64,000 bases of DNA, from the NCBI GenBank assembly GCA_017553575.1, contig JAFZKQ010000016.1, forward strand, positions 1-64,000, written 5' to 3'. Below the pieces are notes generated by a model, which saw only the letters and a program-made list of their open reading frames with translations, was not told the origin of the DNA and did not search any database. This DNA is from Paludibacteraceae bacterium (GTDB lineage: Bacteria; Bacteroidota; Bacteroidia; Bacteroidales; Paludibacteraceae). A program made the position numbers and the translations under genes. This document shows positions 21,640 through 57,868 of the stretch, piece by piece (position 1 is the first letter of the stretch; each line of letters begins with the position of its first letter).

Positions 21640-22338
21640 TTATCGCAATTCAGTACATCTGCCCTTCCTCTTTATGATATCCATAGAAAGATAAAGGAAA
21701 GCAAACGAATACCAGTCATTATTTTTAATCGAACTATGTCCGACCTTATAGGAATCGTCCAAGAATTTATTAGACGAGTTTGTCACATCGAAATCATCCC
21801 TGAAAAGTTTCCTCATTGACCACTCGACACCGACATTAAAGCGATCGGCGAATTTAAACTTGTAACCCAAACCGAAAGCTATATTATACGCATACTCGTT
21901 CTTGTCGGAAGTCTGATAGATCGCCATGCCAGGGCCCAACAAAATATAAGGCGTGTGGCACTTCACGTTCTTATCCCACGTCTCAGGGCCATACTTAAAG
22001 AAGTTCAACTCATACTGCAAGCCCAACTCCCAGAAATCACGTTCGAACTTTGCTTGTTGGTTTTTCGGAAATTTATTAGGAAAATTCTCCGTATCGCCCG
22101 ACACGGAAGCCTTTGCTATATCCAATTTGAGAACCGACCTTTTCGTGAAAGAAGCCCTAAAAAGACCACCAAGCATCAAATTGTTTTCCACGAAAGGCGT
22201 GGTTGAATTCGCATCACCATTGTAATAGGAAACACCCCCTATCACACCAATCTCACCGATATACTGAGAATTGGCAATGCCCAAGGAGCAAATTATAAAT
22301 ATGAAAACAAGATAAAACCTTTTGCTAATATAGCGCAT
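21640..22338 (-). CDS. DUF6089 family outer-membrane beta-barrel protein
   Basis: 232 residues from ATG 22338. The longer reading from 22380 adds 14 residues before the signal peptide MRYISKRFYLVFIFIICSLG and is not favoured. After cleavage near NSQ the chain begins YIGEIGVIGGVSYYNGDAN and alternates short strands (LKLDIAKASVSG, YILLGPGMAIYQ, FGLGYKFKFADRFNVGVEWSMRKLF), fitting an eight-stranded OmpA-like barrel. The family is always found next to uppS and bamA in Bacteroidota. Its function is unknown but the place suggests a part in envelope assembly. It is first in the operon. Confidence 0.85.
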   Translation of the reverse strand: MRYISKRFYLVFIFIICSLGIANSQYIGEIGVIGGVSYYNGDANSTTPFVENNLMLGGLFRASFTKRSVLKLDIAKASVSGDTENFPNKFPKNQQAKFERDFWELGLQYELNFFKYGPETWDKNVKCHTPYILLGPGMAIYQTSDKNEYAYNIAFGLGYKFKFADRFNVGVEWSMRKLFRDDFDVTNSSNKFLDDSYKVGHSSIKNNDWYSFAFLYLSMDIIKRKGRCTELR

Positions 22339-22380
22339 TTCCGTCAATTTTAGGAGTGTAAAGGAGATTCCGCCCCACAC

Positions 22381-23027: not shown

Positions 23028-24038
23028 TTACCAGTATACAACAGGACAAGGATAACGCTCGTGCCGTTGATAGATGTAGATGAAGGAAATCTCATGAGAC
23101 CAGGATCCGTTTCCCTTATGGGAAGTATACAAGTCATAAACATAGTAGGCTTGCAAGCCCTTATACGTACCACCCAACATGAATGAAATCGTATTGATAC
23201 CTCCATCGAGGGCACGCTTATAGGCCAAACCTCCAATAATAGGTGAAATCATGACACCGGCACCCATATAGGCTGTCTTGTAGAAAGGATCTTGGTATTG
23301 GAAGTTCGCATTCACGAACAAAGACTTGTCCGATAGTTCCGTACGACCCCACAATCCGTTGGAAGACTCCAAGTCCCGCACATAACTTGCATGGAATGCA
23401 TATTTTCTATAAAGGACTTCATCCTGTTCTTCAGCGATACCACTGAAAGGCTGTCCGATATGCGAAACAGAGAGACCGACCGTCAACATGTTGGAAACGA
23501 CAAAGGCCGCACCGAAACCGAAATCGACGAACGTAGTAGAAGCGCCTTCCACACCATCCTCAGAAGTTTGACCAGAGCCATCACCCGTCACATCCCAATA
23601 CTGATCACCAAATTGATGATCCGCACCATATTTGTTATAGAACACGGCAGCCGTTACACCCAAACGAAGGAAATATTCCGTACCCATATCCTCCGCCAAA
23701 CGCATCGTATGACCATAGCCCAAACCAATCTCGTTGGTTATAATGTCACTCTGTCCCTTATTGTCATAAATATAATAAGCGGCAAAAGAACACATTCGCT
23801 TATAGAAATTCTGGTCATAGGAAAGACGCACCGTGTTGAAGTGGTTGTCCAACGTAGGCCATTGCCTACGGTAATTCAAACCACACCTGATTGCATTGGC
23901 ATTTCCTATCAACGCAGGATTAAGACTGAAAGGAACTATGTTGTGGTTCGTGAAGGTGTAGTCCTGCGCATACGAGGACCACACCATAAACAAACCCATA
24001 ACCGCTGCTACTAACTTTCTCATCATAATTTTCATCAT
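23028..24038 (-). CDS. PorP/SprF family type IX secretion outer-membrane protein
   Basis: 336 residues. Signal peptide (MRKLVAAVMGLFMVWSSYA from Met6, or with five more residues from ATG 24038). The mature start QDYTFTNHNIVPFSLNPALIGN, with the NPALIG motif, and GLNYRRQWP just after are the hallmark of PorP/SprF proteins. The rest alternates barrel strands (LGYGHTMRLAEDMG, YFLRLGVTAAVFY, GFGAAFVVSNMLTVGLSVSHIGQP). In Flavobacterium SprF is needed to secrete or anchor SprB. The ATG overlaps the stop of the giant gene (ATGA), so it is almost certainly its dedicated partner. The far C-terminus (YQRHERYPCPVVYW) is unusual. Confidence 0.92.
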   Translation of the reverse strand: MMKIMMRKLVAAVMGLFMVWSSYAQDYTFTNHNIVPFSLNPALIGNANAIRCGLNYRRQWPTLDNHFNTVRLSYDQNFYKRMCSFAAYYIYDNKGQSDIITNEIGLGYGHTMRLAEDMGTEYFLRLGVTAAVFYNKYGADHQFGDQYWDVTGDGSGQTSEDGVEGASTTFVDFGFGAAFVVSNMLTVGLSVSHIGQPFSGIAEEQDEVLYRKYAFHASYVRDLESSNGLWGRTELSDKSLFVNANFQYQDPFYKTAYMGAGVMISPIIGGLAYKRALDGGINTISFMLGGTYKGLQAYYVYDLYTSHKGNGSWSHEISFIYIYQRHERYPCPVVYW

Positions 24039-24310
24039 TTTAAGATTGTAACATAACCTCTATGCTCTCCATCTCTGATGGCTCCGGCACACTCACCTTT
24101 ATACTTAACGTACCAACCGTAAACACCCGTTGGACAAGGCTTGCCTTTGTACGTTCCATCCCACTCGTCGTCGAAGGAATGACCCTCGTAAACGATTTGA
24201 CCTAATCTATCATAAAGGACGAACTCAAACTCGTCGATGAAGTTTCCACCATAGAACTTAAATGTTTCATTCTTACCATCATTGTTAGGAGTGAAGGCCG
24301 TAGGAGCCCA
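24035..24310 (-). other. Type B type IX secretion sorting domain of the giant protein
   Basis: The last 91 residues begin WAPTAFTPNNDGKNETFKF and continue with FEFVLYDRLGQIVYEG, DEWDGTYKGKPCPTGVYGW and end in GYVTILK. This is the CHU_C/gliding-motility-associated C-terminal domain (type B). Unlike type A domains, it is generally not sufficient alone and relies on a PorP/SprF protein, which is exactly the next gene. Confidence 0.93.
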
Positions 24311-27300
24311 GAAGGTTCTCCAAACAAAGACTGTGTCATAACCGACGTACTCACAACCGTTAGTATCCGTAGCACGGATTGTAACGACTACTGAATCACC
24401 GATTGACTCTGTATCATACTCGTACCTCAAGTCATTACCCCTGATCTCGTTCAAGCCAATTGCAGGAGTCCAAGACCAGTCTGCATTCAATGGAGAAGTT
24501 CCCTTGAACAATACCGTTGGGTTATTTGCATCAATCAAGTGAGGGTTAACCTCGAACAAGAATGGTTGACGAGGCAACATGTCAACACTGACACTCGTTG
24601 AAGCCTCACATCCGTTCTCACCCTTACCTACAACAGTCAACTTAGTTGGCTCGTCGATAAGGAGCGTCAAGCTATCCTCGTGAGAACCTTCACCCAACTC
24701 AGGCAAAGAAGGAATACTTGTCCAAGTGTAGAAGACACCACCCTTGACAGAGACTTTCACCTCATCTGGAGTACCAAGACAGCCCATCTTGTTAGAGATG
24801 TCGATATCCAACATCGGAACTGGCTTCACATCGACAGGATACTCAACCGTTGTGCTACATCCGAACTCATCGTAACCTGTTACGAAGTAAGTCGAAGAAG
24901 AAATCGGAGCGTAGGTAATGGATGATGTGATATCACCCGTACTCCAACGGTAAGAGCTTGCACCCTGAGCCGTAAGAACAAATGCCTCATTTGGACAAAC
25001 CTCCTTATCACCGTATACTACCACATTCGGTGGCAATATCACGTGGACATTGACTTGCGTATCAGACTTACATACTTGCGTTGCACCAGAAAGGAACAAT
25101 GCTATGTCGTGTTGAGGAGTAACGGTGTAGACTGCCGAGTTAGAAACCGTTTGGTTACCCAATACCCACTCATAAGAGGAAGCACCTTGACCAACCAATG
25201 TCACTGTCTCACCAAGACAAACCTCAGTTCTACCAAGCACTGCCAACTTAGGAGCATTGATTGGCGTAACGGTGAAGGATGCCTTGCTTGTACAACCTCT
25301 GTTGTCAGTACCCGTTACCGTGTAAGTTGTCTTCTCGGTTACGATAGGAGAAATCGTAGAGCCAGAGACTCCATTGTAATCCCAAACGTAGAGGATACTG
25401 TTACCAGATGCAACCAAGGTTGCCTCTTGACCTGAACAAACCTTATCATCACCCGAAACGTTGACTACAGGGTTTTGATATACTGTAACATCAACATTGT
25501 TAGAAGCCTTACATCCGTATTGGTCAGTACCCGTCACCTTGTAAGTTGAAGATGTCAACGGAGTAGCAACGAGGGCATCACCTGTCGTGCCATCACCCCA
25601 AGTATAGGTTTCTGCACCTTCAGCTCTCAAGTTAAGTTGCTCGCCCATACACAACGCCGTCTTACCAGTAACAAGCACGTTAGGCAAAGAACGAACCACC
25701 ACATCGACAGTAGCTGTAGAAGTACATCCGTTTGTCGTACCGCTTACGCTGTAAGTGCCTCCAGCCGTTGGCCAAGTAGAAAGCGTTGATGACGCTGTAC
25801 CGTTAGACCACTTGTAAGAGACAGCTCCTTGAGCTACCAAATTCAACTCATCGCCCACACAGATTGTTGGGTTACCCAAGATCTTAACATCAGGGTAAGG
25901 AATCGTCTTAACCGTGAACGATTGCTTAGATTGACATCCATTGACGTCTGTTGCATCAACCACGAATACTGTCGTTGAATTAACAACCGCTTGAGTTTGA
26001 GCACCAGATGCACCCGTATTCCAAACGTAATCTACAATCTGGCTTTCACTAGATGCTGTGAAGGAAGCTTGAGAGCCTTCGCAGACTTGAGCATCACCCG
26101 TGATGACAACCTTAGGCAACTCATTAACCGTCACATCGATTGAGAGTGTATTCTTACACTTGTTAGCATCCGTACCAGTTACGGAATAAGTTGTAGAGAT
26201 CAATGGTGAGGCAACAAATTCACCCGTCGTGTTAGATGTTCCGTTACTCCAAGAGTAGCTATCTGCACCTTCAACCGTCAACTCTACGCGGTCACCCTTA
26301 CAGATGCTGGTGTTACCAGACTTAACCGCAAGGACTGGAAGAGGATTGACTCTGATGTTAACCTCCTTCTTCGTCGTACATCCGTTCTTCGTACCGCTGA
26401 CGCTAATCATCTTATTATTATCGAAGAGGACTTCCATCTTTGAACCTCTTGTCTCATCCGACCACAAGTACTCGTTTGCACCTTGAGCAACCAAGACTCC
26501 ATTGCTGTTGATACATCCGATAGAGTCACCGATGATTGAGATGACAGGATAAGCGATTGGTGTAACAGACATAGTTGCCTTGTTCTTACAACCCCTATCA
26601 TCAGTACCAAAGACGGTAAATACCGTTTGCTCATTGATTGTATACGTGTATTGAGCACCTACGAACGTGTCGGTTGGCAACTCAGGATCAACCCACTCAT
26701 ACATCGTACTGCTACCATTTGCGCTAAGAGTAACTTGACCACCCTTACATACTGAGTTAGGACCAGCGATTCCGATTGTAGGTCTGCTGTAAACCTCAAC
26801 AGGAACTACCAATGAAGCCTGACAACCATTTGCATCCGTTGCATCTACCTTGTAAGAAGTAGAAGTCATCGGTTGAGAAGTCATCGTCTCGTTGTGAACA
26901 CCGTTGCTCCAATCGTAAGTCACAGCACCCGTAGCCGTCAACGACAAGATATCGCCTTGACAGATGGAAGTGTTACCCAAGACACTGATTACAGGAGGTT
27001 GGTTGACTGTCAACGGAACCGTAATCGTGCTAGAACAGTTATCTCTATAACCCGTCAACTTGAGGGTCTTTGGTTGATCCATCTTCACAACCACCGTAGT
27101 TGCCTTAGAGAGAACCTCATCTGTTTCATCAAGTTCCCATACATAAGACTTAGCACCGAGGGCAGTCAATGTAACATCGTTGCCGACGCAAGCGAATGGA
27201 TTACCCTCCGTTGTAATGACTGGCTTATCAACTGGAGTAACCGTGATAGAAGCCTTGTTCGTACAACCGTTAGCATCCGTACCGACAACCTCGTAAGTTG

Positions 27301-30300
27301 TCTCCTCAGAAACGATTGGCTCATACAATGCTACGGCAGGACCATCAACCCATTTGTAGTTGATGCAGCTACCAGTTGCGAGCAAGGAAGCAGCCTCGTT
27401 GATACATACGGAAGCGTCACCCTTGATCTTGATGGAAGGAACATCGAACAACCTCACTGTTACCTCCTTGCTTCCCTCACATCCAAGAGCATCTCTACCA
27501 TAAACTTTATACGTCGTTGCTGTAGTTGGACTACCCGTCAATACATCACCAGTTGCACCGTTGCTCCATGTGTAAGTCTGAGCACCCTTCGCGATGAGCG
27601 AGAACTGATTGCCATGACAGATTGTGGAGTCACCCTCGAAGGAGATGATTGGCAATTGATGAACCTCTACATTAATAATCTTCTTAGTCGTACAACCTCT
27701 GTCTGGATTGCCTTGGATGTAGCTGGTTCCATTTACATAAACCGTTGTTGAAGCCTCAGGAGTGAAGCTGTAGAATGGTTTAACAGAACCATCTTGCCAT
27801 ACTTGAGCATCCACACCCTCAACCCAAAGAGTTACAGGAGTACCAGAACATACAGGCTCTGCACCTCTTACTGTAATCTCAGGATAAGGAACTGGTGTCA
27901 CATCTATAGAAGCTGTATTTATACATCCGTAACCGCTAGTAGCAGTAACCGTATAAGAGGTTGCCACATCTACCTTAGGAGTAATGCTTGCGCCCTTCGT
28001 CATCTCTGGGTCGTTCCAGATATAGGAAGCAACATCACCACCAGCAGTCAACAAGGTCGTTGTACCTTCACAGACTACGTTTTCACCCGTAATCTTAACG
28101 GCTGGCTTAGCATGAACTACAGCAGGAACATCCATGTAGCTTACGCAACCCAAAGCATCCTCACCTCTCAACTTGTAGATAGTGGATGATGTAGGAGTAT
28201 CCTCCCAAACATTACCACCTTGTCCAAGGCCTGCCTTTCCGTTCCAAGTATAGTTCAAAGCACCGTATGCCGTGAGGTTGATCTTACCGCCCTCACAAAT
28301 CTCAGATACACCTTGAACATCAAGTGTTGGCAATGGGTTAACGGTTACCATCTTAGTCTCCTTCGTTGTACAACCATTCTCCGTAGCATTTACGTAAACT
28401 TGAATGTCAACCTCTGGAGTGAAGGTCATTGTACTACCTCTCATGCCGTTATGCCATACATAAGTTGCGTTTCCTCCATTCGTGCTTGCCGTCAATGTAA
28501 CAGTTCCACCGAGACAGGTTGAAGGTTCGCCAGTAATCGTCACTATAGGGTAAGCGATCGGTGCGACCTCAACAGGAAGAGTATTCTTACAACCCTTAGC
28601 ATCCGTACCAGTTACCTTGTAAGTCCAAGGCTTGTCAACGATAGGCGTGATGGCTGGAGAATAAGTGATGTCTTGATTACCATCATTCCAAACATACGTC
28701 ATATCATCTGAACCAACAGCGGTCAACTCTGTCTGTGTACCGTCGCAGACGTTGCGATTACCCTTAACCGTGAATTGAGGCAAAGGATTAACCGTCACAT
28801 GGACATTCGTCGTGTTTTGACATTGATGAGCATCCGTACCAGTTACCGTATATGTTCCAGAAACTGAAGGGTTAGCCAACAACTCGTCACCGACCATACC
28901 CGTATTCCACTTATAAGTACCAGCATCGCCAGCACCCGTAGCTGTCAATTTAAGAAGGTCACCAGCACAAATCTCTGTTTCACCACCAACCAAGATTTGA
29001 GGCAATCCGTGAACTGTAATCTTGTGCGTTGCAGAAGAAGTACAGTTGCCTGTCGTTCCTTCGACTGACAAGGTCAACGTACCTACCGCATCTGGAGTCA
29101 CTGTGATAGAAGCTGTCTTCTCGCCCGTAGACCACTTGTAGTTTTGAGCACCTGAAGCAGTCAACTTAACCGAGCCATTCACACAGACCTCATCAAGACC
29201 AGAGATCTCTACAGTAGGATTCTCAATTACCTTCACATCTACTGTAAGAGAAGACTTACAGTTGTTACCATCAACACCCTCAACCTTGAAGGACTCATCT
29301 TGTGTGATGACAGCCGACATTGTAGGGCTTACAGAGTTGTCATGCAACCAAGTATAGTATTCTGCACCTTGAGCTGTCAACGATACTGAGCTTCCGTTAC
29401 AGATATTTCTGTTACCAACCACCTTGATGACAGGCAACGTATCTACTGTCACAGGAACTGACAATGAAGAGATACAACCCTTAGCATCCGTTCCGACCAA
29501 CGTATAGGTTACAGAACCCATTGGCTTCGTCTGCAAATCAGCACCAGCCTTAACATTGAGCCACTCATATGTTGAAGCACCTTGTGCAAGCAAATCGAGT
29601 TGATCACCTTGACAAATCTTAGTCTTACCAGCAACACTCAAGACTGGCAATGGATTAGAAATCACATTGATGTTCTTCGTAGCCTTACAAGCATTGTCCG
29701 TAGAAGCGTAGTGGGCAGTAGCCGTCACGCCGAGAACTTGGTTAGAAGTAACCGTCAAGTTGACATTACCTGATTGGTCTGCCGTTCCATCCGTCCACTC
29801 GTAAGAGTAAGAGATTGCATCGTTAGCATTTGCCGTTGCCGTGAAGTCCAAAGACTTGCCGTAACATGCTTCTGTATTGCCAATGATGTCGATGGTTGGC
29901 TTTTGAAGAGCATAAACCTTGATGTCAGCTGAATTCTGACACATCTTATTATTCTCTGCCATTACGATGTAACCCGTAACGGTGTAAGTAGTAGTATCTG
30001 TGATAAGCGGTGTAAACTCTGCCGTATTCGTCTTACCATCGTTCCACTCATAGTATGTTGCACCTGAAGCAAGGAGAGAAGCGTGGTCATCGACACAGAC
30101 GCGAGGATCACCGGAAATCGTCAACTTAGGCAAGTCATAAACCTTAGCGACAATCGTCGTATCAGAAGAACATCCGTAAGCATCCGTACCGATCAACTTG
30201 TAAGCTGGAGCAGATGACTTAGGAGAATCCTTCAAGATCTCACCATTATCACCCTCACCTGCAGCACCATTCCAAGTGTAGGTTTGAGCACCACCAGCGG

Positions 30301-48300: not shown

Positions 48301-51300
48301 CCTCCGCAACAATACTAGAAGAACCCGTACATCCATTTCCTGAAGTCACCTCTACAGAAACCTGTTGAGCCTTATCGGGGACAAAAGTTACCGTTTCGCC
48401 CTGATCATTGGCAGAGGTAGACCATTGATAATTATATGGTCCAGCTGCATCTGCTTGGTTGGTAACAACTGCCTTCAAGGCCAACTCGTCACCTGAACAT
48501 TTAGGCGTATTACCCGTAATGGTTATTTGTGGCAATTTCTTTGCTGTAACAATTTTCTCAGCATAAGCGGTACAGTGCAAATCAGTCTTGTCCGTCACAT
48601 CCACACGATAGGTACGTGTCTCAGCCGTAATAGGAGAGATGAAAGATGCCATAGAATACTCGTCATCGTTCCACAAGTAAGTCACATCCATGTTGGATGA
48701 TGCCATCAACGTGTTTGGTTGACCGACACAAACAGCCGACTCACCCGAAATTGAAACCGTAGGCAACTCTTGGATATGGGTCGTTACATCTATTTTATTC
48801 TCACAACCATTCACATCACGACCTCTCAACGTATACTTTTGGTTATCGTTATTCAAAGAATTAACCACCAATGGATTGACAAGTTGCTCATTCCACCAAT
48901 AGTCTTTTGCACCAAGAGCCGTCAACTCCAACTTGGATCCCTTACAAACGGTCGTCGCACCGTCATAGCTAAGTTCTGGCAACTTATTGACAGTGATGTC
49001 GATTGGCACTGTGGTAGAACATGTGACATCGAAAGTATTTAGAGAACCTACCGTCTTTGTAATACTACCCGTTACATAAATCGTCGTAGAGTTCTCTGGT
49101 TTTATACTATATGCGGCCGAAGTTCCATCTCCATCATTCCAATTCCAAGAGGTATTGGCTAAGTTGGAGCTCGCTGTCAAATGAGCATACTTACCTTTAC
49201 ATATCACATTTTCTCCGTTCACCGTCAACTTTGGCTTATCTACACCATAGACTATATATGAAGTAGAACCCTCACACTTGTTCGCATCCTTACCCCTCAC
49301 GGAGAAGGAGCGCGAAGCATGCTCAACAAGAACCTCCCTATAATCCAATTGGGAACCATCTCCCCATTCATAGGATTCAGCACCCGAGGCTGTCAAAATA
49401 ACAGTCTCTCCCATACATGCGCCTCCCTTATCCGCTGTTATTTTAAGTTGAGGCAATGGCATGATCTTCACCTCGATATTCGTTGTCGTGGAACAACCAA
49501 GACTGTTTGTACCCGTCAATTGATAGGAGTTGTCTTGCGTAACATTCGTCAAACTCAATACTGGTCCATCCTCACTATTTGCACTCCATCTATAAGATTC
49601 TGCTCCCACCGCAGTCAAGACTAAGTCGCCACCCTTACATACCTTTGCAGGCTCACGGGTTGACAATGTCGGAACAGGATTGACGGAAACTAGAACCTCC
49701 TTCGATGTCGAACAACCTTCATTAGAGCCCTCGATTTCCGTGGTTCCCTCCACCGTCAAAATCAAATCTGACTGTACCTTGTCAATACTAATCGTTGATG
49801 TAGTTGCACCTGTTGACCACAACCATCTTTGTGCAGTATTACTAGATGCTGTCAAGGTGACTGTCTCGCCAGCACAAACCTCCGTCGGCCCATCCACTTT
49901 TACTGTAGGATAAGCGACTACATTAATAGTCTTTCTCTTTTCTGAAGAACAACCATGCTCGTCAAATCCTTGCACCCAATAGGTAGCTTTATCATTTACC
50001 ACAACATCACGGTAATTCTCCGTCGTATTATCACTCCACAAATAACGTGTACAAGTAGGAGATGTTACTTTCAAACGGACTGAGCTTCCCTTACAAACCT
50101 TAGATGGCCAATTATCAATTTCCATCAAAGGAGCGTTATAGGCCGTAACCGGAACTTCAATCGTGTTCGTACATCCGTTCGCATCCGTACCTGTCAAGGT
50201 ATATTTCGTGTCGGATGTCACATTCGTCAATTTCAAAGTTGCATTGGTATTACCATTACCCCAATCATACGTTGTAGCACCTGTTGCCGTCAACTCCAAC
50301 TTTCCACCTGAACATACTCCCAAATCACCCAAGACCATCAAAGTAGGTTTAGGGTTAACCTCTACATCCACATAGTCTACAGAAGAACAACCGTTCAAAG
50401 TACCAGTTACCGTGAGTCGGAAATTTCCTGCTGGAGTGTTTTCATATTTTATAGCACTTACTGTATTCTCTCCATCATCCCATCTATATGCAGTACCACT
50501 TGGTCCACTAGGCGTCAAACTGACTTTATCGCCCTCACAGACACCTCTATCACCCAAGATAGTGAAGACTGGAGGAATACGCAATGCAGGAGTATAATTA
50601 TTCTCGCCTTCGCATCCATAATTATCGGTCACAGTCAAATAGAAAGTCTGTGATTGCTCAATCGGATCTGTCGTAACATGGTCGTACGCACCACCGCTCT
50701 TTGACCAACCGGCACCATTAGACCATGAGTATTTGACAGGATAGGCTTTGTACTCCACATCGCCTGCCGTGAAATCATTGTAAGTAGTATTCTCTGCGTC
50801 AATGGACAACTCAGCAGAGTTCCCCTTACAAATAAAACTTTCGCTTATTATTACATTTGGTTTTTCTATCACATATACATCTATTGACTTTTGAGCAGGA
50901 CAGCCACTGCCCAAATTCTGACCCGTCACAACATAAGTATGGTGACCCACACTTGGTGTGAACTTTTTCGATGCTCCAGTACCCAAGTTGTTGTCCCAAC
51001 TATATATTGCACCATCGTCCAAACCTCCTGCAATAAGTTCCAACTCCGATCCTTCACAGATTGGAGCGGTTGGAGCACCCAATACATTCAAATCTGGTGC
51101 TGGCATTACATTTACCGTATGAGATTGCTCAGCACTCTCGCAGACCTTAACATTTTCCCCTTTGGTTCTCGCCTTTACATAAACAGTTGTAGTTGTCGAA
51201 GTTGGCACAAAAGACATCTGATTACCAGTCTCTGGCTGAGTAACAATTTCGCCCGCTCCAGAACCAATACGCCACGTATATTCAAGTGAAGGTTCACTGG

Positions 51301-54300
51301 CAGTCAACGTAACTGTACCGCCAGGACAGACATTGAAATTACCTGTAACATTAAAGGTTGGTAGAGGGGTCACCGACACCGTAAACTCCGCCTTACTATG
51401 ACATCCTTTATCATCAATAGCAGTCACCTCATAAGTGGTCAAATCAGTTGGTATAGGTTGAATGACATCACCAGAAAGGTTACCTGGCATCCAAGACCAA
51501 GTCTTGATATTGTCTGTTGATTTAGCTACGACCTTAGCAGGGGAGCCCTTGCAGACCCAATTGATACTGTTTGCATAATCGATGGACACATTCGGCAACT
51601 TGTTGAAAGTAACGGTAAAATCCTTGGATGACTGGCACCCGTTGTTATCCGTACCTACCACCGTATAATTATAGGTAGTAGCTTGCGATTCGTTGAATTC
51701 GAACTTGCCATCCGTAGAAACTGGACGACCTGATATCTCATACGAACCACTTGCACCAGCACCACCAAAAGTCAAGACCGCCGTTTCATTGACACATGCT
51801 TCCGGAACACCATTCTGAACAAGGATAGGATTCTGATTGACAATAACATGCGCCTCTACTGGATTAGAAGAACAACCTCCACGTGTTGCGATGGCCTTAA
51901 AGACGCCTCCATCACTAATTGTGATAGAGGTGGCGTGCGAACCGTTGTTTGCATCTGGTGTCTCCCACGTAACTTGGGTATTCTCACTCAATACAGCAGT
52001 CAAGATCTTTGATGAATTCACACCAGAAGCACAAAGATTGTCATCGCCATCAATCACAACCGTAGGCTCTGGGTAAACTTTATAGGATACATCTTGATTA
52101 GCCTTACATCCGTTTATATCAACAACAGTTACCTTGTAGGATTGTTGCTCACCTGATGAATTTGTTGTTGAGGTAGTGGCTGCTGTTTGAACTTGAGCTC
52201 CATGCAAAGTATTGCTACCCACCCACTGATAACTACCTATTGTCACTCCGCTCTCTGGAGAAGAAGCTTGAGCCTTCAACGTGATTATATCATTTGGACA
52301 ATAAGATACTTTATCTGCAGAAGCCATTACAATAGGGTTCTTGTGAACGACGAAGTCAAACGTCTGCTCAGCTGCACAACCACCCGTCGCAGCAGGACTC
52401 TGCACCCTTACCTTATATCTTACCGTCTTTGCCTTTCCATCTGCATCAAGAGTAGCGACTGAACTTGGAGTATGCCTATTAGGATGACCCGTAACTGCTG
52501 CGACCGGTGTCTCCTGATCCCCCTCAATCTTATACCATGCATAAGAATAGGCGGCACTCTCCTCATATTGGTTTGTCTCCCGATTATAAACCTTCACCGT
52601 AAACACAACATTATCACCCTCACATATAGAAGGCACCTTGTCAATCGTAAAGTTAGGAATATCCTTGACGGTAAGATTCTTGATAACAGACTTCTTACAT
52701 CCTTGATATTCCACTTCAAGTTTGACGGTAGCCATGTTTGCCGACACCTTCAACATCGTATCTTGCTGGAACCTTGTGGCACTATTGTTCCACTTATATC
52801 CATCATTAGGATAGTCTGGATTTGGTGATCCATTGCTAGAAACAGGAGGATTGGCAGTCAAGTGCAACTTCTCTCCATCACAGACTGGCTCTATTCCCTC
52901 AATAGATGGCTCATAATCGTTCTTCATTTGAACAGCCTCAATGGTAGGTTCTCCAGTACAACCATTAAGACCCATTGCCCGGACTTGCACCGTATTGGTA
53001 CCAGCATGCAAAGCATTGGCTGGAATCTGATAAACTGAAGTCATTCGAGTCTCGCTAGAACTATTAACAGACCAATAGTAACCATCACTGAGTGGAGTCT
53101 CCGTTGATTGCGACTCATCTACCACAACCTCCGATGTGACAGATGCACCAAAACAAACATCATTCATCGGACGGAAAGTAAGAGCCGGAACACCCTTTGT
53201 CTTAACAGGAACTTCATGAGTTCCATAACAATAATCACCATTTTTCCCGATTTCCTCATAAAATTTTCTTGCCGTCACCGTATAGGTGGTCGTCACATTA
53301 GGTTGACCTATCTTGGTAGTCACCGTACCTGTTGAATAATCTGAGCCAGGGACAGGAGACCATTTATATGTACTACCCGTAGTTCCAGTAGCGACAGACA
53401 GAGTAAATGGATCATTAGGACAAACTTCAGCGTTATCTACCTTACCCTCTACAGTAGGATTCTCCAACGGTGTAACAGCCACCGTTTTCTCATATTTACA
53501 GACTTGAGTCGTTCCATCCTGCCTAACATACTGAGGAGATTCCACCTTCGCCTTTATATACCGTACTCTGTCAATGCTTGGTATCGTATAGTTTGGACCC
53601 GAATTATCCAAAGAGACCTCACCATCTCCCGCCAAGTTTTCAGTTTCATACCAACTATACATATAACCCGGATATCGGATGTCTGGAGTCAACTTCACCT
53701 CGTCTCCCTTACATGCATAAGTATTTTCCAACCAATCTTCCTGCAAAAATTCAGGAGCCTTCACATATATATCCTTAGAGAAGGAACAATCGCCTGGCTT
53801 TGTATACACAGTCAACGTAAGAGTATCTTCTTTCTTGGTTATGTCTTCAAACTTATAATCTATATCCTTTGCTTCTATGTTTTGGCCATTAGGAAGAGTC
53901 CAAACATAACTTGTTATTTCAGCATTCGGTTTGTCGTCGATTTTTGACGTAACCTTTGAAGTATTGATGAGATGAACAACACCAGCACAGTCATCTACCT
54001 GATAAGCACTCGGATCTGCAGTAATTGCCACCAAATCAGTCTTCAATATAAAACGAGAACAATTACGTGTATCGGTTTGATCTACATTTATATAACAATA
54101 AATTTTTTCTTTAGGCCCAATCGTGGATCTTTTCACCCTAGCCTTATTAGGCTGAGTTGGACTTTGATATATTGGTTTACCACTTGGACGTTCCCAAGTA
54201 TAGGTTCCTGCCACATTGGGCAACCCCCCTGGCGCTGTCAGCCAAACCTGGTCTTCATCACCGTCTTGACAAAAATCCGACTCAATCTCCCATTTACGAG

Positions 54301-55636
54301 TCTCTGCTTGGAAATATCCATAGGAATTATGTCCGCCTGCAATAACAGTTTCTGCTCCATCATAATTGCCATTCATCAAACAATCATGGTTCAGAACTTC
54401 TACACGAACACTGTCTCCTAAATAATCACGCAAATCTGCATAACGAGTCCTCCACCCAGAATAATGATACAAGGAAGAGTAATTCGGGTAGTCTTTTGTT
54501 GGCGCCACAATTGTCGCATATTTAATAAAGCAGTCGTTTGAACTTATCTTGTGATTGTTATGACTACCGTTATTGTTGCAATTATTACTAATATACTCTC
54601 CTCTATTCGCTCCTACTCCGAACCCATCAGTAACAAAAGGAACCTTATCACCATCAGAGCAACTTACATTGTAACAATAACTATCTAAGCCATCATACAT
54701 GGACATCATTCCTGGATAATTCAACTCCGCATTATTAGAACTAGCAATCACATGATGTTCTGCACAATCTACTTTAACCCATTCCCCTGCACTGTTTTTT
54801 GCAGTGATTCTCACAGTCATCTCAGGATACCCATTACCCGAGTGATTCAAAGAGGATTCAGGGGATGCCAAAACTGCCAAAAAACGATAAATTAGCAATG
54901 TGGAATTTTTAGTAACAACGAAATCATAATACATACGCTCAGCTGCCGCCCACGGATTATGAACGTTTTTCGTTGATTCCGTATATGGATTATGCCAATC
55001 ATTAGATGTTAGGCCAGAGCCAGAAGAACCATACCATCCATTACTATGATAGCCATAAAACTCACATCCGAAATCGTAACAATGCTGATTATTTACCTCA
55101 TAGTTTTTTGCAGGATAATTCAGTTTGTTGCCATCAGAATCCTCCGTATTAGGTCCCCACATAGTTCCTTTTATTGTATAGCGTATGCTAGAATTAGGAC
55201 GCCAAGGTACCGGCCGACCAATTCGCATTACACCACTTTTATTTTCGTCTGGCATTACACGAACAGGTACATAAGAAAAAATTCTATCCGTAGTCTCCGA
55301 ATTGTCAAATCGCCAAAAACGAGCCTTCTCCGAATCTGTAAAAGAATAAGTAACATACGTATTATTACTTTGCTTTCTTTTAGCTGTCATGTCTACAATT
55401 GCTATTGGCTTTGAAGTTCCAACAGATTTCTTATCCCAAATGTAGGTATACTCATCCCGGTCAGCTTTCAACGGAGACGTATACCAACCCGTTTGATAAG
55501 TCCAACCTGCTTCACCTTGCGAAAAGTCAAGATTTGGAGTATCCACGTTTCTATCAACCTTCTCATCTTGGGCAAAAGCCACCTGACAGAACGCAAGACA
55601 CGCAACAATATATGATAAAAGTAATCGTTTTTTCAT
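24035..55636 (-). CDS. Giant type IX-secreted multi-Ig-domain surface protein (10,533 aa)
   Basis: One uninterrupted frame of 31.6 kb, predicted mass above 1.1 MDa. Order: signal peptide (1-22, cut AFA-QD); N-terminal region (about 23-530) without tandem repeats; more than a hundred Ig/PKD-like modules of 75-95 residues (about 530-10,350); type B sorting domain (10,443-10,533). A module reads roughly 'P.i.i.G...vC.G..l.L.A.Ga..Y.W.....g.....p....TY.v.GtD..GC.....v.V'; its two cysteines should form one disulfide. Residues NNDGKNETF and YDRLGQIVYEG in the C-terminus identify the gliding-motility-associated domain (TIGR04131 type). The known analogue is SprB, a gliding adhesin of about 6,500 residues. 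Surface display is well supported; adhesion is inferred. It is co-transcribed with the PorP/SprF gene. No type IX core genes are in the window. Confidence 0.93.
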   Translation of the reverse strand: MKKRLLLSYIVACLAFCQVAFAQDEKVDRNVDTPNLDFSQGEAGWTYQTGWYTSPLKADRDEYTYIWDKKSVGTSKPIAIVDMTAKRKQSNNTYVTYSFTDSEKARFWRFDNSETTDRIFSYVPVRVMPDENKSGVMRIGRPVPWRPNSSIRYTIKGTMWGPNTEDSDGNKLNYPAKNYEVNNQHCYDFGCEFYGYHSNGWYGSSGSGLTSNDWHNPYTESTKNVHNPWAAAERMYYDFVVTKNSTLLIYRFLAVLASPESSLNHSGNGYPEMTVRITAKNSAGEWVKVDCAEHHVIASSNNAELNYPGMMSMYDGLDSYCYNVSCSDGDKVPFVTDGFGVGANRGEYISNNCNNNGSHNNHKISSNDCFIKYATIVAPTKDYPNYSSLYHYSGWRTRYADLRDYLGDSVRVEVLNHDCLMNGNYDGAETVIAGGHNSYGYFQAETRKWEIESDFCQDGDEDQVWLTAPGGLPNVAGTYTWERPSGKPIYQSPTQPNKARVKRSTIGPKEKIYCYINVDQTDTRNCSRFILKTDLVAITADPSAYQVDDCAGVVHLINTSKVTSKIDDKPNAEITSYVWTLPNGQNIEAKDIDYKFEDITKKEDTLTLTVYTKPGDCSFSKDIYVKAPEFLQEDWLENTYACKGDEVKLTPDIRYPGYMYSWYETENLAGDGEVSLDNSGPNYTIPSIDRVRYIKAKVESPQYVRQDGTTQVCKYEKTVAVTPLENPTVEGKVDNAEVCPNDPFTLSVATGTTGSTYKWSPVPGSDYSTGTVTTKIGQPNVTTTYTVTARKFYEEIGKNGDYCYGTHEVPVKTKGVPALTFRPMNDVCFGASVTSEVVVDESQSTETPLSDGYYWSVNSSSETRMTSVYQIPANALHAGTNTVQVRAMGLNGCTGEPTIEAVQMKNDYEPSIEGIEPVCDGEKLHLTANPPVSSNGSPNPDYPNDGYKWNNSATRFQQDTMLKVSANMATVKLEVEYQGCKKSVIKNLTVKDIPNFTIDKVPSICEGDNVVFTVKVYNRETNQYEESAAYSYAWYKIEGDQETPVAAVTGHPNRHTPSSVATLDADGKAKTVRYKVRVQSPAATGGCAAEQTFDFVVHKNPIVMASADKVSYCPNDIITLKAQASSPESGVTIGSYQWVGSNTLHGAQVQTAATTSTTNSSGEQQSYKVTVVDINGCKANQDVSYKVYPEPTVVIDGDDNLCASGVNSSKILTAVLSENTQVTWETPDANNGSHATSITISDGGVFKAIATRGGCSSNPVEAHVIVNQNPILVQNGVPEACVNETAVLTFGGAGASGSYEISGRPVSTDGKFEFNESQATTYNYTVVGTDNNGCQSSKDFTVTFNKLPNVSIDYANSINWVCKGSPAKVVAKSTDNIKTWSWMPGNLSGDVIQPIPTDLTTYEVTAIDDKGCHSKAEFTVSVTPLPTFNVTGNFNVCPGGTVTLTASEPSLEYTWRIGSGAGEIVTQPETGNQMSFVPTSTTTTVYVKARTKGENVKVCESAEQSHTVNVMPAPDLNVLGAPTAPICEGSELELIAGGLDDGAIYSWDNNLGTGASKKFTPSVGHHTYVVTGQNLGSGCPAQKSIDVYVIEKPNVIISESFICKGNSAELSIDAENTTYNDFTAGDVEYKAYPVKYSWSNGAGWSKSGGAYDHVTTDPIEQSQTFYLTVTDNYGCEGENNYTPALRIPPVFTILGDRGVCEGDKVSLTPSGPSGTAYRWDDGENTVSAIKYENTPAGNFRLTVTGTLNGCSSVDYVDVEVNPKPTLMVLGDLGVCSGGKLELTATGATTYDWGNGNTNATLKLTNVTSDTKYTLTGTDANGCTNTIEVPVTAYNAPLMEIDNWPSKVCKGSSVRLKVTSPTCTRYLWSDNTTENYRDVVVNDKATYWVQGFDEHGCSSEKRKTINVVAYPTVKVDGPTEVCAGETVTLTASSNTAQRWLWSTGATTSTISIDKVQSDLILTVEGTTEIEGSNEGCSTSKEVLVSVNPVPTLSTREPAKVCKGGDLVLTAVGAESYRWSANSEDGPVLSLTNVTQDNSYQLTGTNSLGCSTTTNIEVKIMPLPQLKITADKGGACMGETVILTASGAESYEWGDGSQLDYREVLVEHASRSFSVRGKDANKCEGSTSYIVYGVDKPKLTVNGENVICKGKYAHLTASSNLANTSWNWNDGDGTSAAYSIKPENSTTIYVTGSITKTVGSLNTFDVTCSTTVPIDITVNKLPELSYDGATTVCKGSKLELTALGAKDYWWNEQLVNPLVVNSLNNDNQKYTLRGRDVNGCENKIDVTTHIQELPTVSISGESAVCVGQPNTLMASSNMDVTYLWNDDEYSMASFISPITAETRTYRVDVTDKTDLHCTAYAEKIVTAKKLPQITITGNTPKCSGDELALKAVVTNQADAAGPYNYQWSTSANDQGETVTFVPDKAQQVSVEVTSGNGCTGSSSIVAEVNDRPSFHIEGETTICQGEWLHLKAVSNIEGAVYTYTWKGSVTGETLDQLMMAPSEEGKPFEFNVKATTVGGSVDCPSESEEIVRVTVRPTPTISIEGVSKLCRGSSTTLKAKDMQHVTQVNYVWEYYDENGEKQSTLSENFPTPPINSDFTVTLVGTDIYQCSSEPAVFKITPVEKPLLTIEPTGLPICDRGEVTLTGSNSLDNSNNTRYEWSVNGVTVLSESKLYTATYDKTTTVRLTGTKDNCESFTEIELPVYTSPKISYTGETSLCAGETLNLTGREISSNGDLTYTWERSGVTPVTINPYTEVMVNSSPAEGYKYTLTAVDKYGCSTEYGPITVNVRQNPSVAIEPSINGVTEVCRGLTQDLTAVGGQDGLVYKWLHNNSDARKITLPAVEDATDYTVDVFDGTCHGQATVTVRPKEYPVVSIPDQTVCMGNSTTVTPPDNIDVKSYTFKYGNEEESGAFEYSFTPTKENSVLYVYPLGKNGCEATTPTPVRITAVTVSAPKITGSMDVCKGGELELTASMPNPNAEMEYKWEGTNYESYGADLNLQMNTVGYNDGVNDNSFKFKLTATTKDDLGCEVYKDFSVNVHTLPTLQITSPSVCADSLFTMSVKRTDVEKDNATSYEWKIKDTENVLSTSDELTTSIASPTTFTVEATDIYQCKGSNSRTIDTYTLPAITIEGNNPVCLNAPLTTLKAKVEGVTGTVTFTWYDEKGDKIATSDILPSYTPTSLGTKRLKVEAYVNGQKCVATQYVDVIVNALPDLSVTGRRSVCKNSVITLTGVNEADPTTSFVWYETTNNENTLIATGATFSKTFASTESKSYLLKGTDANGCVNSYPVSITVEDLPTFDFEPIKAVCPYKEFTVKLKDANASYKYDWNNDGSYEGTSNSYSITKDTTITVVALNENTGCTFEFSKDVKVNTVPTITFNPATAEICEGEQISVSALTGTGLAAANSWKWSTGATTNTITYTPVMTGENTLTVTGTNSDGCYTDATYKFNVVAKPVVTIKATPTCLGGNVKLEVTYAKSEDYEYSWNGGAWTTEKSVLVPVTESNTNSSTTTARKYNYTVSVRNKSGLACSYDIEGSVDVYLLPTVALSGEYACDGNATLLTASGIEGGKYNWYAADGTTLLKSNSATYEPTITADTKFIVKASDGNSCNSAPAEIEIKKLDKPTITLDDYDPTCVNQSITLKDKGNAGSREWKMGDLTGSAAEFTFTPTVSGTFTVSLTSTKIYQGNPKLGNTTVTCSSTESFPVEVKPLPTVTLPASVMVCPNEPTTLTANATAANGSTLNYTWTDLSTNVKEENAASTYETRKINDSETVRFQVDVTDAYCSASTTTEVKAREVPSVEIEAPSIVCEGEETVFKIKNNSLGQINLKSYTWTNVQSTENMNATGTQIRDVVEKSFTYKAQVVDANNCEQEIVYYINIYKKPVVEISSSKNSVCADDAAGITLSADVKNTTESNGPYSYYWNTGDETKNLTLESPQNDQVYSVTVTSKDGCKGFDDIKIDMVQTQPAVPMPEGLTDICIGDQIRLSYESNANYSYSWKLQGGNEVPGNVYTYTPSQSGDYTITITVTDLQTSCTDSRDVTVHVHSYPADLQISGVDKLCSGTDAILTASSSSSPITYAWYNENPEVNNSIVAVGNGATYKVTNITNPTTLYMMGDNGFCKRYANHTITPVSKPTLAYTGNLEVCDGGTTTLIADGQQSGIQYAWEDQSASAYATYTSEAINLGQNKVVKLTGTKDNCSNELFVTLSANPIPQITPETKEVCSGELFNLNYTLGNNGADVQSAKWYSGSTLLGGTYPDAEGQAPTTHEWQTSYTTDVTTTMPLRLEVVSSKGCPQSATVDVKVKALPVVAITGKLKVCDGSGTTLSATGANSYQWYRMDGETAVELPGETESNLTVVVDAEKTYAVKGNDGCESKIKKATVAPLAYPTITAEDVKVCKGADATLVANVPDHTDPSVTTTYSWTTGANTPTTVVSNVNVQPIKETVTGSYKYTDGTVCSKPATVTVTYQDLPTVAFTLVKPVICNGESAEVTFNGPATSYKLDNVAVAPNADGEYKVSVSPTGTTTYTVEMTEEKQGGLTCTNTATFEVVVYEAPAILVSGTDYVCTNGTVILKATSEDGATNYKWTSDKNASWSETGATIVTHNITEETTFKVTADGPSSHNSCPASKTYTVKPLKLPVIVAADKSVCAGGSVKLEASATAEGQSSMSYMWDAMEGQYPGSSFTYAPTAPSGDVTVTVTATAKYNVSTISCSKSEDVKVTINPLPNVDFIGNTDLCTGSTLSLTATGIEGGSYIWKNASNATVSTTANLVVANLTAKYTSYKLVGEDPITGCKNEITIPVTTQQKPVIVITGATQICKGDYFNLTAGGTEGAIYEWYDGDTRVSAVDNFKVQADEPKTYKVLAKLLLEGGDYCKDDLDVPVTPLDKPELQAADAVICLGETANLSASGADYYEWTFGTEKTSGTGVNTFSIKPTTAASHKVYLDGSNIYNTPTGQTRCTVPAVINVTVNDLPSVAYSGSTTLCEDDLMTLTATGPDADREYKWTLIGTDEVLSTTRTLERVPAKGESYKLTVKNTVTNCTNSTDVTPTINAKPIIAVSGVKNLCEGSSVNLSATGAYTYKWFARDGQTVDENAEPLSKLPTYTKNNITEDIQLRVYGTSDLRCVGYQDVDVKALAKPTFQIENVEVCHESSVLLEDTKGEADANSYKWIIGGVTLDGDASSITYEATSKTDKVGRVVASKSYTTSDGDVVCSNTSADFTITVNPLPVLAYSSTSICEKGDLTITASGASTYAWYDAAAYDQDNTVAPLKDGDKLTVENVTTSSILAYRLEGTSDKGCVSAKDVTISIVDLPIVSIVGDSLVCENSRYTFTAQGAKSYTWYKVGDDTPISTSATYSDQIGSEEVSLMVVGKAATGCIGTAYVTVHPQAYPVLVDNNDKKVCVGSPIEWTLPGGDDGNYKWRFEGKDLSSTSSAQRIIPTIVGDQKPVYVTASKSYQLYGTSLECKKTFTYSLDVKHLPLLSLVGATEVCIGTKLDLTASNLYNDADPTTFSWYAGNVKVSDNAEYSVDELMSDATYRYEAIDANGCKSEATVDVTVVDKPVISASGDFYACEGAAANITISGANSYEWTNANNVVVSKLATYKPVMNGDSVYTVIGKSAKGCYSEPLTVNAYALDIPKVELNNDDICLGGQAKFTATVSIDDQKDIDGGVNFGYTWQGYPDVATNTLEITSNVAGTSKVTFRGTAEYTRTVNEVSKNYSCYKTVQADLTTRALPVFSAYAKNVCRGENVTFTVESSEPDMSYEWKNGTTVLGNGSTLTLEASAGSHTYQLTGTKKYTNALSCEKTMDVTVEVYDLPEVAISGQLDICSGSTTKLTAVVPVGSTNTYQWYKVSGNTREEQAGKTEATFVTPAITENTTYRVVAMNATGCKDSAEVTVGVFANPVIEVQNEATCLNSPITFDVANANSEDDAATYVWMVNGTEIDGHKTATYTPSLVGTMDVQVTGSKLHTVADERGIPQTCKTTAHFQLEVRPLPALTITGSTALCYDSDLSLTAAGADGNNTAGTYFWAESNSPDTHISDNNKLEVPNFKADKTYILTGIDGFGCKSEKIINVVVNNLPTIVVEGSRYACQGSTTTLTATGASSFVWKKNNKDGEVVSTEATYTPEVTEVATYYVEGTDGNDCGNFTTVTVQPLAIPEITELKSIGVCLGDEAHLSAIVSADGADGFEYAWSSNVDNYNSQETVKPLSEGITRVRFTGRAVYEFGVDKYKCSKDQTVEVQAYALPKLQQTGINIVCEGYPVQLVATGVNAAGTYQWKDGQVVLSDENTLDKVFETSTILTLVGTNIYTTPDDYANEDHTLYCPATLENIPVKVNTPDAVTVDGQLNVCEGATTTLTASGSKYYRWFNKDEDPDLASSLNGRPDYRNVVINKDVNFTVIGTDVNTCSDTVTVKVTALKRPTIKVPENPATCLDREISLSVQSDAADAVNADMYEWTVNGKLMEDASGSVLAYTPTSQANPTIRVRGTVVYTTDGDPISCSKDESFQLTVHGLPKLTVEGSTAICKDGKLELTASGADEYKWSFNNEVVSNTATLIENPFSVDKTFELYGKNTTTTCDNKIEVDVIVNELPTITVVGDRYVCYGGKAKLTAQGASSYIWKNAAGDVLFEGATYEPTITEETTFTVEGKDAKTCGGSTTVTVSPLDYPTIADLHDEAICLGNSVTFAPALTAEDATFAYRWMASDNNVAPTYEVKPNAAGVMPISFRGSAVYVKDDKRFECYKDVIVRVTTYALPDVTFDGTTEVCKKLPLDVTAHGADTYVWKRGNELITGEHNDKLEITPEESYEYTLIGTENHPFSYTDGNATQEKVVACSSTITVPTTVFELPTVAVLGDKQICHGETAKLSATGARDYKWFKGDEEEVISATAEFSPKVEETQTYRVIGTNANNCTHEVSFEVVPLARPELATEDSKVCLGSSVELTAPATADPGSYVWTISGVKLAASDHIAMVEPADYGNTYGTKVVKLSASKTYTVDGQNDQICTSNATFSLVVNNLPSVSIDGDLTICPNAPLDLEAKGSSTSYKWTGFANTATEVSGSMHEKLHIEHVVSDSKIYEVTGTDANGCSNKASVIVVMTETPTIVVEGEPRVCKGDKTKLTASGASSFTWIRLDENNNEVETVHTGKSYELTVDKQETFKVVGTDNNDCQGFTTVTVYPLAYPEITLDKTTLLCVGEDVTLSASAVAANSSSIDYEWPVAKVNGPTLIVKSQGEGTITNEVKATAHYDLTSNTCSSTATAKVVSFKLPTLTTSGVSKVCFGTPLDLTAAGADTYKWSGEFNVEDAHLAETPTMSRDYTLQGTKVYTYENMQKSCSNSIIVPITVYSLPDVMITGDRNVCKDAEATLKAEGALNYAWYNSTTSNLEPISQNPRISPKITEDMKVTLVGTDANGCKNDIEITIKAVDRPVITAEDATICLGKTAKLTASATGGSSYHYQWTEPNGTLIEETASISVSPKTSQNYKVEVIATYDGIATTCASTKTVSVTVNNLPEIEFEGSTVVCQNDALNLEAKGAVDYTWDNVKGEGDHGEFFREVPTTSVTYVLKGTDANGCENSINVPVTVNPLPDVQITGDLNVCGGSETTLTANNANTYVWSTNETSNSIKVTVDEVKTISVVGTDLNKCKNTAEVTVNPYAHPDFTVRDTAICYGSSVTLSIADQASDYAYYWVVDNDTTYSSTITISPAQTTTVYVHGREESTSCITRKSVKVTVYNLPTIAAEGSKTICFGDNFDLKAKGADTYVWHSNLGEVTGDAYTEALKSSQTITLEGTENHAFGTATIGCKNTLPVDVVVNPLPVISIEGDVKACVGDAVSVTAKGANTYKWFDGTETATITKKITEDAEFTVVGTDNNGCQGRGSVQVYTLVPPTITADDAAICLGETASLSVSATAPDGIKYSYYWTATGETDQTITVKPAAATANYPVYVNATASYNGTQTTCTSQKEIKVEVYALPEVAYDGKTTICQGDELQLKALNADSYTWNGNAGQGDNQDMLIEVPTNSQSYKLVGTQNHTFNGKNIACKATISVPVTVNELPTVSITGTASVCDGTPTTLTAHGANNYLWSLSSDKETILSKASKLEVNVSETLEYYVIGTDVNGCKNDAKITVSPYSYPTFEVDPVTLCFGDQATMTIKNPSESMAYVWTTGDTTVTGQTFIFSPATSLNVYVKGTSSMTGCEKNEVVKVTVNPLPIIKHDVITHGCIGDDVKIVASGATSYKWNGVDGDAEMIYTPIALTSSYNIVGTDDNNCSSSETVTVTLNKLPDVQIAGELYVCENTEANLTATGAQSYAWSTGETGTASIKPVVTDEHVITVTGTDNNQCENKATVTLHAVDVPELTLEPATVCFGTSADMAVLVSAEKVQSYEYLWSNGTTTQTASILPNAIGENSVSVAVTANYVGSEGTVSCQNTAYSTVTAIKAPTLTITGALSICSGETLELTAGGAQTYTWNGAAGEGDNGEILKDSPKSSAPAYKLIGTDAYGCSSDTTIVAKVYDLPKLTISGDPRVCVDDHASLLASGATYYEWNDGKTNTAEFTPLITDTTTYTVTGYIVMAENNKMCQNSADIKVYALQKPTIDIIGNTEACYGKSLDFTATANANDAISYSYEWTDGTADQSGNVNLTVTSNQVLGVTATAHYASTDNACKATKNINVISNPLPVLSVAGKTKICQGDQLDLLAQGASTYEWLNVKAGADLQTKPMGSVTYTLVGTDAKGCISSLSVPVTVDTLPVIKVVGNRNICNGSSVSLTAQGAEYYTWLHDNSVSPTMSAVITQDESFKVEGVDGNNCKSSLTVDVKVIENPTVEISGLDEVCVNGSVKLTASGAQNYKWSTGEKTASITVTPDAVGTLTLSVEGTTGNCTSSATHKITVHGLPQILVGGETEICAGDLLKLTATGAGDAGTYKWNTGMVGDELLANPSVSGTYTVTGTDAHQCQNTTNVHVTVNPLPQFTVKGNRNVCDGTQTELTAVGSDDMTYVWNDGNQDITYSPAITPIVDKPWTYKVTGTDAKGCKNTLPVEVAPIAYPIVTITGEPSTCLGGTVTLTASTNGGNATYVWHNGMRGSTMTFTPEVDIQVYVNATENGCTTKETKMVTVNPLPTLDVQGVSEICEGGKINLTAYGALNYTWNGKAGLGQGGNVWEDTPTSSTIYKLRGEDALGCVSYMDVPAVVHAKPAVKITGENVVCEGTTTLLTAGGDVASYIWNDPEMTKGASITPKVDVATSYTVTATSGYGCINTASIDVTPVPYPEITVRGAEPVCSGTPVTLWVEGVDAQVWQDGSVKPFYSFTPEASTTVYVNGTSYIQGNPDRGCTTKKIINVEVHQLPIISFEGDSTICHGNQFSLIAKGAQTYTWSNGATGDVLTGSPTTATTYKVYGRDALGCEGSKEVTVRLFDVPSIKIKGDASVCINEAASLLATGSCINYKWVDGPAVALYEPIVSEETTYEVVGTDANGCTNKASITVTPVDKPVITTEGNPFACVGNDVTLTALGAKSYVWELDETDEVLSKATTVVVKMDQPKTLKLTGYRDNCSSTITVPLTVNQPPVISVLGNTSICQGDILSLTATGAVTYDWSNGVHNETMTSQPMTSTSYKVDATDANGCQASLVVPVEVYSRPTIGIAGPNSVCKGGQVTLSANGSSTMYEWVDPELPTDTFVGAQYTYTINEQTVFTVFGTDDRGCKNKATMSVTPIAYPVISIIGDSIGCINSNGVLVAQGANEYLWSDETRGSKMEVLFDNNKMISVSGTKNGCTTKKEVNIRVNPLPVLAVKSGNTSICKGDRVELTVEGADSYSWSNGTSNTTGEFVASPLISTTYSVTGTDANKCKNTLSIDVTVNELPKVVITGDAQVCEGSQASFTASSESQIVDYVWNTGASGAQTQAVVNSTTVFVVDATDVNGCQSKQSFTVKTIPYPDVKILGNPTICVGDELNLVAQGAVSYKWSNGTASSTLSTWPTAGGTYSVSGTTNGCTSTATVDVVVRSLPNVLVTGKTALCMGEQLNLRAEGAETYTWGDGTTGDALVATPLTSSTYKVTGTDQYGCKASNNVDVTVYQNPVVNVSGDDKVCSGQEATLVASGNSILYVWDYNGVSGSTISPIVTEKTTYTVTGTDNRGCTSKASFTVTPINAPKLAVLGRTEVCLGETVTLVGQGASSYEWVLGNQTVSNSAVYTVTPQHDIALFLSGATQVCKSDTQVNVHVILPPNVVVYGDKEVCPNEAFVLTAQGASSYRWSTGDITSSITYAPISSSTYFVTGYDEFGCSTTVEYPVDVKPVPMLDIDISNKMGCLGTPDEVKVSVKGGVFYTWTSIPSLPELGEGSHEDSLTLLIDEPTKLTVVGKGENGCEASTSVSVDMLPRQPFLFEVNPHLIDANNPTVLFKGTSPLNADWSWTPAIGLNEIRGNDLRYEYDTESIGDSVVVTIRATDTNGCEYVGYDTVFVWRTFWAPTAFTPNNDGKNETFKFYGGNFIDEFEFVLYDRLGQIVYEGHSFDDEWDGTYKGKPCPTGVYGWYVKYKGECAGAIRDGEHRGYVTILK
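24580..54040 (-). repeat. Tandem Ig/PKD-like module array inside the giant gene
   Basis: About 29.5 kb of protein-level repeats with roughly 240-270 bp per module, so on the order of 115-120 modules by length (estimated, not counted one by one). Most carry the pair vC-x-G and G-C. Linkers follow a cycle of three: an ending of the type 'V.P(L/Y).YP', then 'V...LP', then a third 'V.V...(L)P', so the unit of repetition is three modules (about 750 bp). DNA-level divergence between copies is large by eye. Confidence 0.85.
54040..55570 (-). other. Non-repeated N-terminal region of the giant protein
   Basis: About 500 residues rich in Trp, Tyr, Asn and Ser. A first part (LDFSQGEAGWTYQTGWYTSP) reads like a carbohydrate-binding jelly-roll opening. 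A second part (YDFVVTKNSTLLIYRFLAVL... then EMTVRITAKNSAGEWVKVDC) is a strand-rich block seen at the start of other large Bacteroidota surface proteins. It may be the distal tip of the fibre. No named domain can be assigned with certainty. Confidence 0.6.
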
Positions 55637-55740
55637 AACTCTACTTTTTTGTTTATTTTCAGCAATTTATAATCTCTAAAACCCTATATTTTTTCAGTCG
55701 TCAATAGCATGGACATACTAAATCCTTATACTAGGTCTTG

Positions 55741-55748
55741 CAAAATTA
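55741..55748 (-). promoter_or_regulatory. -7 box of the giant gene
   Basis: TAATTTTG on the minus strand matches TAnnTTTG and would give a leader near 98 bases. The -33 position has only a T-rich stretch. This single promoter would have to drive a transcript above 32 kb. Confidence 0.5.
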
Positions 55749-55821
55749 AGATTATTTATCGTAAAAAAGGTAAAGAAAAGGGCATTTTTTATGATGAAAG
55801 ATAAGATTTTTTCTTTTTGTT

Positions 55822-56037: not shown

Positions 56038-56043
56038 AGATAA

Positions 56044-56124: not shown

Positions 56125-56154
56125 TTTTTATGCACCGAAATCCACTGAAAATAT

Positions 56155-56162
56155 TATATTTG
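56155..56162 (+). promoter_or_regulatory. -7 box of the AAA+ ATPase gene
   Basis: TATATTTG matches TAnnTTTG; transcription would start near 56168, about 17 bases before the ATG. No clear TTTG at -33, which may mean the iteron-binding protein helps polymerase. Confidence 0.65.
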
Positions 56163-56184
56163 CGAAAATCAATCCCAATGAATC

Positions 56185-57861: not shown

Positions 57862-57868
57862 AAAGAAA

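Follow-up and report, generated by a model that had tools for sequence, protein, structure and literature searches.

The closest described counterpart of the locus reported here is the SprB/SprF pair of Flavobacterium johnsoniae, in which a very long surface protein (6,497 residues; PMC9870892), given as about 200 nm (PMC12635249), carries a type B sorting domain and is encoded directly upstream of a gene of the PorP/SprF family. Export of type B proteins in this species needs dedicated downstream carriers (PMC12618676, PMC9143113), and gene order separates two kinds of pair, since a PorE-like gene adjoins the static ones but is absent beside the mobile ones (PMC12618676). The C-terminal tail of SprF bears a Cys-X-Cys motif that is disulfide-bonded to Cys343 of GldK, a cysteine that PorG uses as well; in Porphyromonas gingivalis, the equivalent PorK Cys356 bonds PorG, which has a single cysteine only (PMC12635249). 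This species offers a second point of comparison, for its PorP likewise holds a type B protein, PG1035, at the surface (PMC9143113). A third is GhpA, the grappling hook protein of Aureispira sp. CCB-QB1, a T9SS-secreted heptamer (PMC11205867) with chains of 5,898 residues.

A giant predicted type IX substrate and its carrier

The DNA analysed (the window) is a stretch of 64,000 nucleotides on contig C12 of an uncultured gut member of the Paludibacteraceae, whose genome comprises 3.39 Mb in 125 contigs. Its main features, defined by ORF reading, profile matches and dN/dS, are as follows.

24035..55636, reverse strand: giant type IX substrate gene, ATG start, 10,533 residues without internal stop
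53726..55567, reverse strand: N-terminal head (residues 24-637), after the signal peptide, the most diverged part
24581..53725, reverse strand: shaft (residues 638-10352), 40 A-B-C triads, together 120 Ig-like modules, with a mean period of 81 residues and two cysteines per module
24092..24307, reverse strand: type B sorting domain (TIGR04131 / CHU_C), by NCBIfam and Pfam profiles
23028..24038, reverse strand: PorP/SprF-family carrier of 336 residues, by profiles, its start overlapping the stop of the giant in ATGA

The preliminary description had already read a single intact frame of 10,533 residues with a type B sorting domain, followed by a PorP/SprF gene, and both readings are confirmed by ORF analysis and profiles. 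The end of the giant scores 50.9 bits with TIGR04131 (cut-off 35) and also matches Pfam CHU_C, while the gene directly downstream scores 115.9 bits with TIGR03519 (cut-off 90.55) and passes the cut-off of PF11751 (PorP_SprF) too. The giant was said to be over half again as long as SprB, which is right (1.62 times).

A draft genome of 125 contigs and a highly modular gene might together hint at an assembly or repeat-collapse artefact, or at a chance frame, but this explanation is barely credible and was rejected, because orthologue lengths, module divergence and dN/dS all contradict it. Two independent assemblies of the same genus (G036 and G062; one from yak rumen, the other from horse faeces) contain syntenic, co-linear orthologues of nearly equal length (10,503 and 10,465 residues, respectively), and no indel of at least 30 residues separates any of the three proteins. 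Even the best-matching neighbour of a module within the protein shares only about 39% identity with it, too little for modules to be collapsed by short reads. Moreover, in the comparison with G062 the positional orthologue is the best match for 116 of the 120 modules, at a mean identity of 0.62 versus 0.39 to the best neighbour within the protein. Since dN/dS against the two assemblies is 0.20-0.21 along the entire length, the frame is not a matter of chance. The 10,533-residue fibre protein is real and conserved.

A PorP scan named relatives in Paludibacteraceae and other Bacteroidales MAGs, chiefly from rumen and horse faeces. Comparable frames elsewhere in the Paludibacteraceae have 6,028, 8,873 and 9,016 residues, each with a carrier, so the length of the giant is held within the genus and varies between lineages. 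In another assembly of the family (G138, contig C83; L096, L028, L029), two giant type B frames, of 8,320 and 8,232 residues, lie in tandem with no adjoining PorP. Within the genus, the number of modules stays constant despite strong sequence divergence, which is greatest towards the head: identity to the G062 protein is about 40-58% over the first 1,200 residues and climbs to about 75-87% over the final 1,500. The comparison with G036 yields a mosaic, in which the first ~1,200 codons show 59-65% nucleotide identity, residues 1601-2200 and 6001-6800 form patches of 98-99%, and the upstream flank is 99% identical, a pattern that suggests exchange of segments between lineages.

Head and shaft

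The giant starts with a signal peptide (residues 1-23, read from the sequence), followed by a head that matches no family among the NCBIfam and Pfam models and found no match when used as query in a scan of genome contigs. A structure model of the head was unusable (mean pLDDT 50) and was discarded. The domain is common to two large paralogues on contig C39 of the same genome, and to relatives at 49-58% identity. Contig C39 encodes three adjacent large proteins (L025/L026; 4,329, 3,153 and 653 residues), the two larger of which bear the head domain, one of them twice; no NCBIfam sorting domain matched their C-termini.

The shaft consists of exactly 120 modules of the Pfam Ig_7/PKD type, nearly all of which have two cysteines (118; the other two have three) and a tryptophan (117 of 120). 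For 91 of the 120 modules, the best match in the protein falls at a multiple of three modules, where 40 would be expected, and mean module-module scores are ~70 at offsets 3, 6 and 9 versus 49 at others, which defines the shaft as 40 A-B-C triads. The tandem giants of G138 have the same three-module period. If the length of SprB is scaled by residue number, the fibre would reach about 320 nm, which makes the earlier estimate of hundreds of nanometres plausible, as an inference rather than a measurement; taking either this scaling or about 4 nm per Ig module, an extended fibre would measure about 300-480 nm.

A four-module stretch of the shaft gave a structure model with a mean pLDDT of 97.6, whose top five structural matches in the PDB are all GhpA fragments (TM 0.68-0.73 over the query), the remaining structures listed reaching a TM of at most ~0.34. 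The giant thus resembles GhpA in its Ig-like fold and in the stacking of its modules. One might therefore imagine a GhpA-like grappling hook, in which a number of chains are wound together as a stiff filament that catches prey or partner cells. GhpA itself is a T9SS-secreted heptamer, a strict period of three modules would lend itself to regular inter-chain contacts, and the C-terminal 5,000 residues of the giant match GhpA by sequence (E 2e-73, a value inflated by tandem repeats). However, the first 1,200 residues of the giant have no match in GhpA at E 0.1, the four-module stretch has no sequence match to it either, and the model is of one chain, from which an oligomeric state cannot be read. 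Orthology, which the E-value might have implied, was rejected for lack of a match to the four-module stretch by itself; the likeness is one of module type, and a grappling hook of this kind is improbable.

The carrier and its tail

In the window and in both same-genus orthologues, hence in three species, the stop of the giant and the start of the carrier overlap by the four nucleotides ATGA. A PDB sequence search with the carrier returned noise only, and a search against phages found no match. Its C-terminal tail includes a single cysteine.

23046..23048, reverse strand: codon of carrier Cys331, in the C-terminal tail PCPVVYW; predicted partner of PorK Cys360, by inference from PMC12635249

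A Cys-X-Cys motif was looked for in this tail and is absent; there is instead a single cysteine, which is conserved within C-P-x-x-Y-W in every one of the 36 readable relatives (39 loci minus two with misread starts and one distant hit), retrieved with search patterns of which the tail motif was not part. Among PorPs of the same genome with readable tails, a few partial hits being unreadable to their end, the CPxxYW tail occurs only in the window carrier and in a 53% identical paralogue on contig C124. It is not found in the PorP of the porK operon, from which the window carrier is distinct. On contig C124 (L023, L024), the paralogous carrier, with the tail CPVTYW, is paired with a type B protein of 1,516 residues, and a further frame, of 2,584 residues, has a weak type B domain.

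As a whole, the genome has 13 PorP hits, some of them partial, and 24 type B domains, whereas P. gingivalis has a single PorP and a single type B protein. A PorE-like OmpA gene precedes the PorPs on contigs C60 and C108, while the window pair has no such neighbour.

Machinery and neighbourhood

Type IX secretion with a dedicated partner, as first proposed, is supported by these 24 type B domains together with the core genes, whose absence would have spoken against it: a search of the genome found SprA, GldK, GldL, GldM, GldN and PorG (contig C71 has PorP, K, L and the first part of M, contig C75 has N and the last part of M). One component lies in the window itself, beyond the carrier and rpmH, and had been overlooked in the earlier reading.

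21640..22380, reverse strand: porG, type IX component (NF052316, 164.6 bits), with a single cysteine in its C-terminal tail (KGRCTELR)
55732..55749, reverse strand: promoter-like stretch of TAnnTTTG shape, ~100 nucleotides before the ATG of the giant; similar in G062

A PDB sequence search with PorG found no match. The promoter-like stretch resembles the Bacteroidota -7 element (TAnnTTTG). Further upstream of the giant (55822-58750) there are several copies of a ~104-nucleotide intergenic repeat with inverted parts, which G036 has too. The wider neighbourhood is as described at the outset, uppS and bamA (for the bamA operon) being recognised by Pfam and the serine and shikimate synthesis genes from sequence only.

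The preliminary description had also set the locus apart from gliding flavobacteria because Bacteroidales are not known to glide in the SprB manner, and this contrast is weakened. Both gldB and gldD score over their cut-offs, and there is a full-length GldJ-like gene, the best match, which at 393.6 bits falls under the curated cut-off of 458.2 and yet is 45-52% identical to GldJs that pass it and, like them, has no GldK cysteine. GldJ was considered as a rare mark of gliding, an idea that was dropped since genes scoring as GldJ are common in the order (223 of 295 sampled Bacteroidales genomes), so that such a gene is no proof of gliding. We found no report of gliding Paludibacteraceae in the literature; gliding in Bacteroidales is hardly described in the literature found, despite the wide spread of GldJ-scoring genes. 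As for the cysteine to which a carrier might be tied, Cys360 of the PorK in this genome aligns with P. gingivalis PorK Cys356.

How the pair might work

From what was read directly (genes, domains, coupling, conservation and cysteines) we infer the following steps: (i) the giant would pass the Sec pathway by its signal peptide and then, by its type B domain, the SprA translocon, (ii) the translationally coupled carrier would receive it from the translocon and hold its C-terminus at the surface, which would leave the variable head outermost, at the tip of a disulfide-bonded shaft of 120 modules, (iii) Cys331 in the periplasmic tail of the carrier would most likely bond the conserved PorK/GldK Cys360 and (iv) this bond would fix the fibre to a proton-driven track of the PorK/GldJ type, which would drag it over the surface. 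These steps are not equally secure. That the giant is exported and held by the window carrier is very probable; a disulfide link between carrier and PorK is slightly favoured; movement of the fibre, such that the cell glides or hauls, is a tentative proposal and on balance doubtful. Taken together, a pair of the SprB/SprF type, whose fibre is exported, anchored by its own carrier and linked to the PorK track, is probably the right reading.

The type B domain and PorP partner, both over cut-offs, the overlap kept in three species, the type IX core genes, gldB, gldD and the GldJ-like gene all fit a pair of this type; the CPxxYW tail, PorK Cys360 and the missing PorE-like gene, as in the mobile substrates of F. 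johnsoniae (PMC12618676), favour a track-linked, SprB-like role for the pair. Against it stand the score of the GldJ-like gene, the wide spread of such genes in the order and the tail itself, for SprF of F. johnsoniae needs both residues of its Cys-X-Cys for gliding and the carrier, like P. gingivalis PorG, has one. The main alternative is that the carrier exports and anchors the fibre without tying it to a moving track, so that it would stay static and serve to attach the cell to plant fibre, mucus or other cells. Static type B substrates exist in F. johnsoniae (PMC12618676), in P. gingivalis PorP retains PG1035 with no gliding involved (PMC9143113), and since the genome has about a dozen PorP hits alongside its 24 type B domains, most type B proteins are unlikely to be motility adhesins. 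However, the conserved cysteines of carrier tail and PorK, the gldB, gldD and GldJ-like genes and the lack of an adjoining PorE-like gene, unlike the PorPs on C60 and C108, speak against a static fibre, and we consider it rather unlikely.

The track-linked pair shares with SprB/SprF a very long surface protein, a type B domain and a directly downstream PorP/SprF gene, as well as, in the genome, the PorK/GldK cysteine, gldB, gldD, the GldJ-like gene, SprA and GldK-N. It differs in the carrier tail (CPxxYW with one cysteine versus Cys-X-Cys) and in its host, a member of the Bacteroidales, and the likeness of the giant to SprB lies in domain, size and gene order. As far as sequence allows it to be classed, the pair is a longer, triad-built one of the SprB/SprF kind, whose carrier tail has a single cysteine and whose host belongs to an order not known to glide. 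A moving grappling fibre is also conceivable, although quite improbable, in which several chains, as in GhpA, would be tied by the single cysteine to the PorK/GldJ track and would haul plant fibre or neighbours or make the cell glide, the 40 three-module repeats setting its length; it would then, if this long shot held, be among the longest SprB-type fibres.

In conclusion, the locus raises the question whether Bacteroidales of the mammalian gut move surface adhesins with the type IX motor. Since the fibre is paired with a carrier possibly linked to the gliding/secretion motor, gut bacteria of this order may glide or haul targets, and the single-cysteine carrier tail might serve as a sequence marker that tells track-linked carriers from static ones throughout the phylum.
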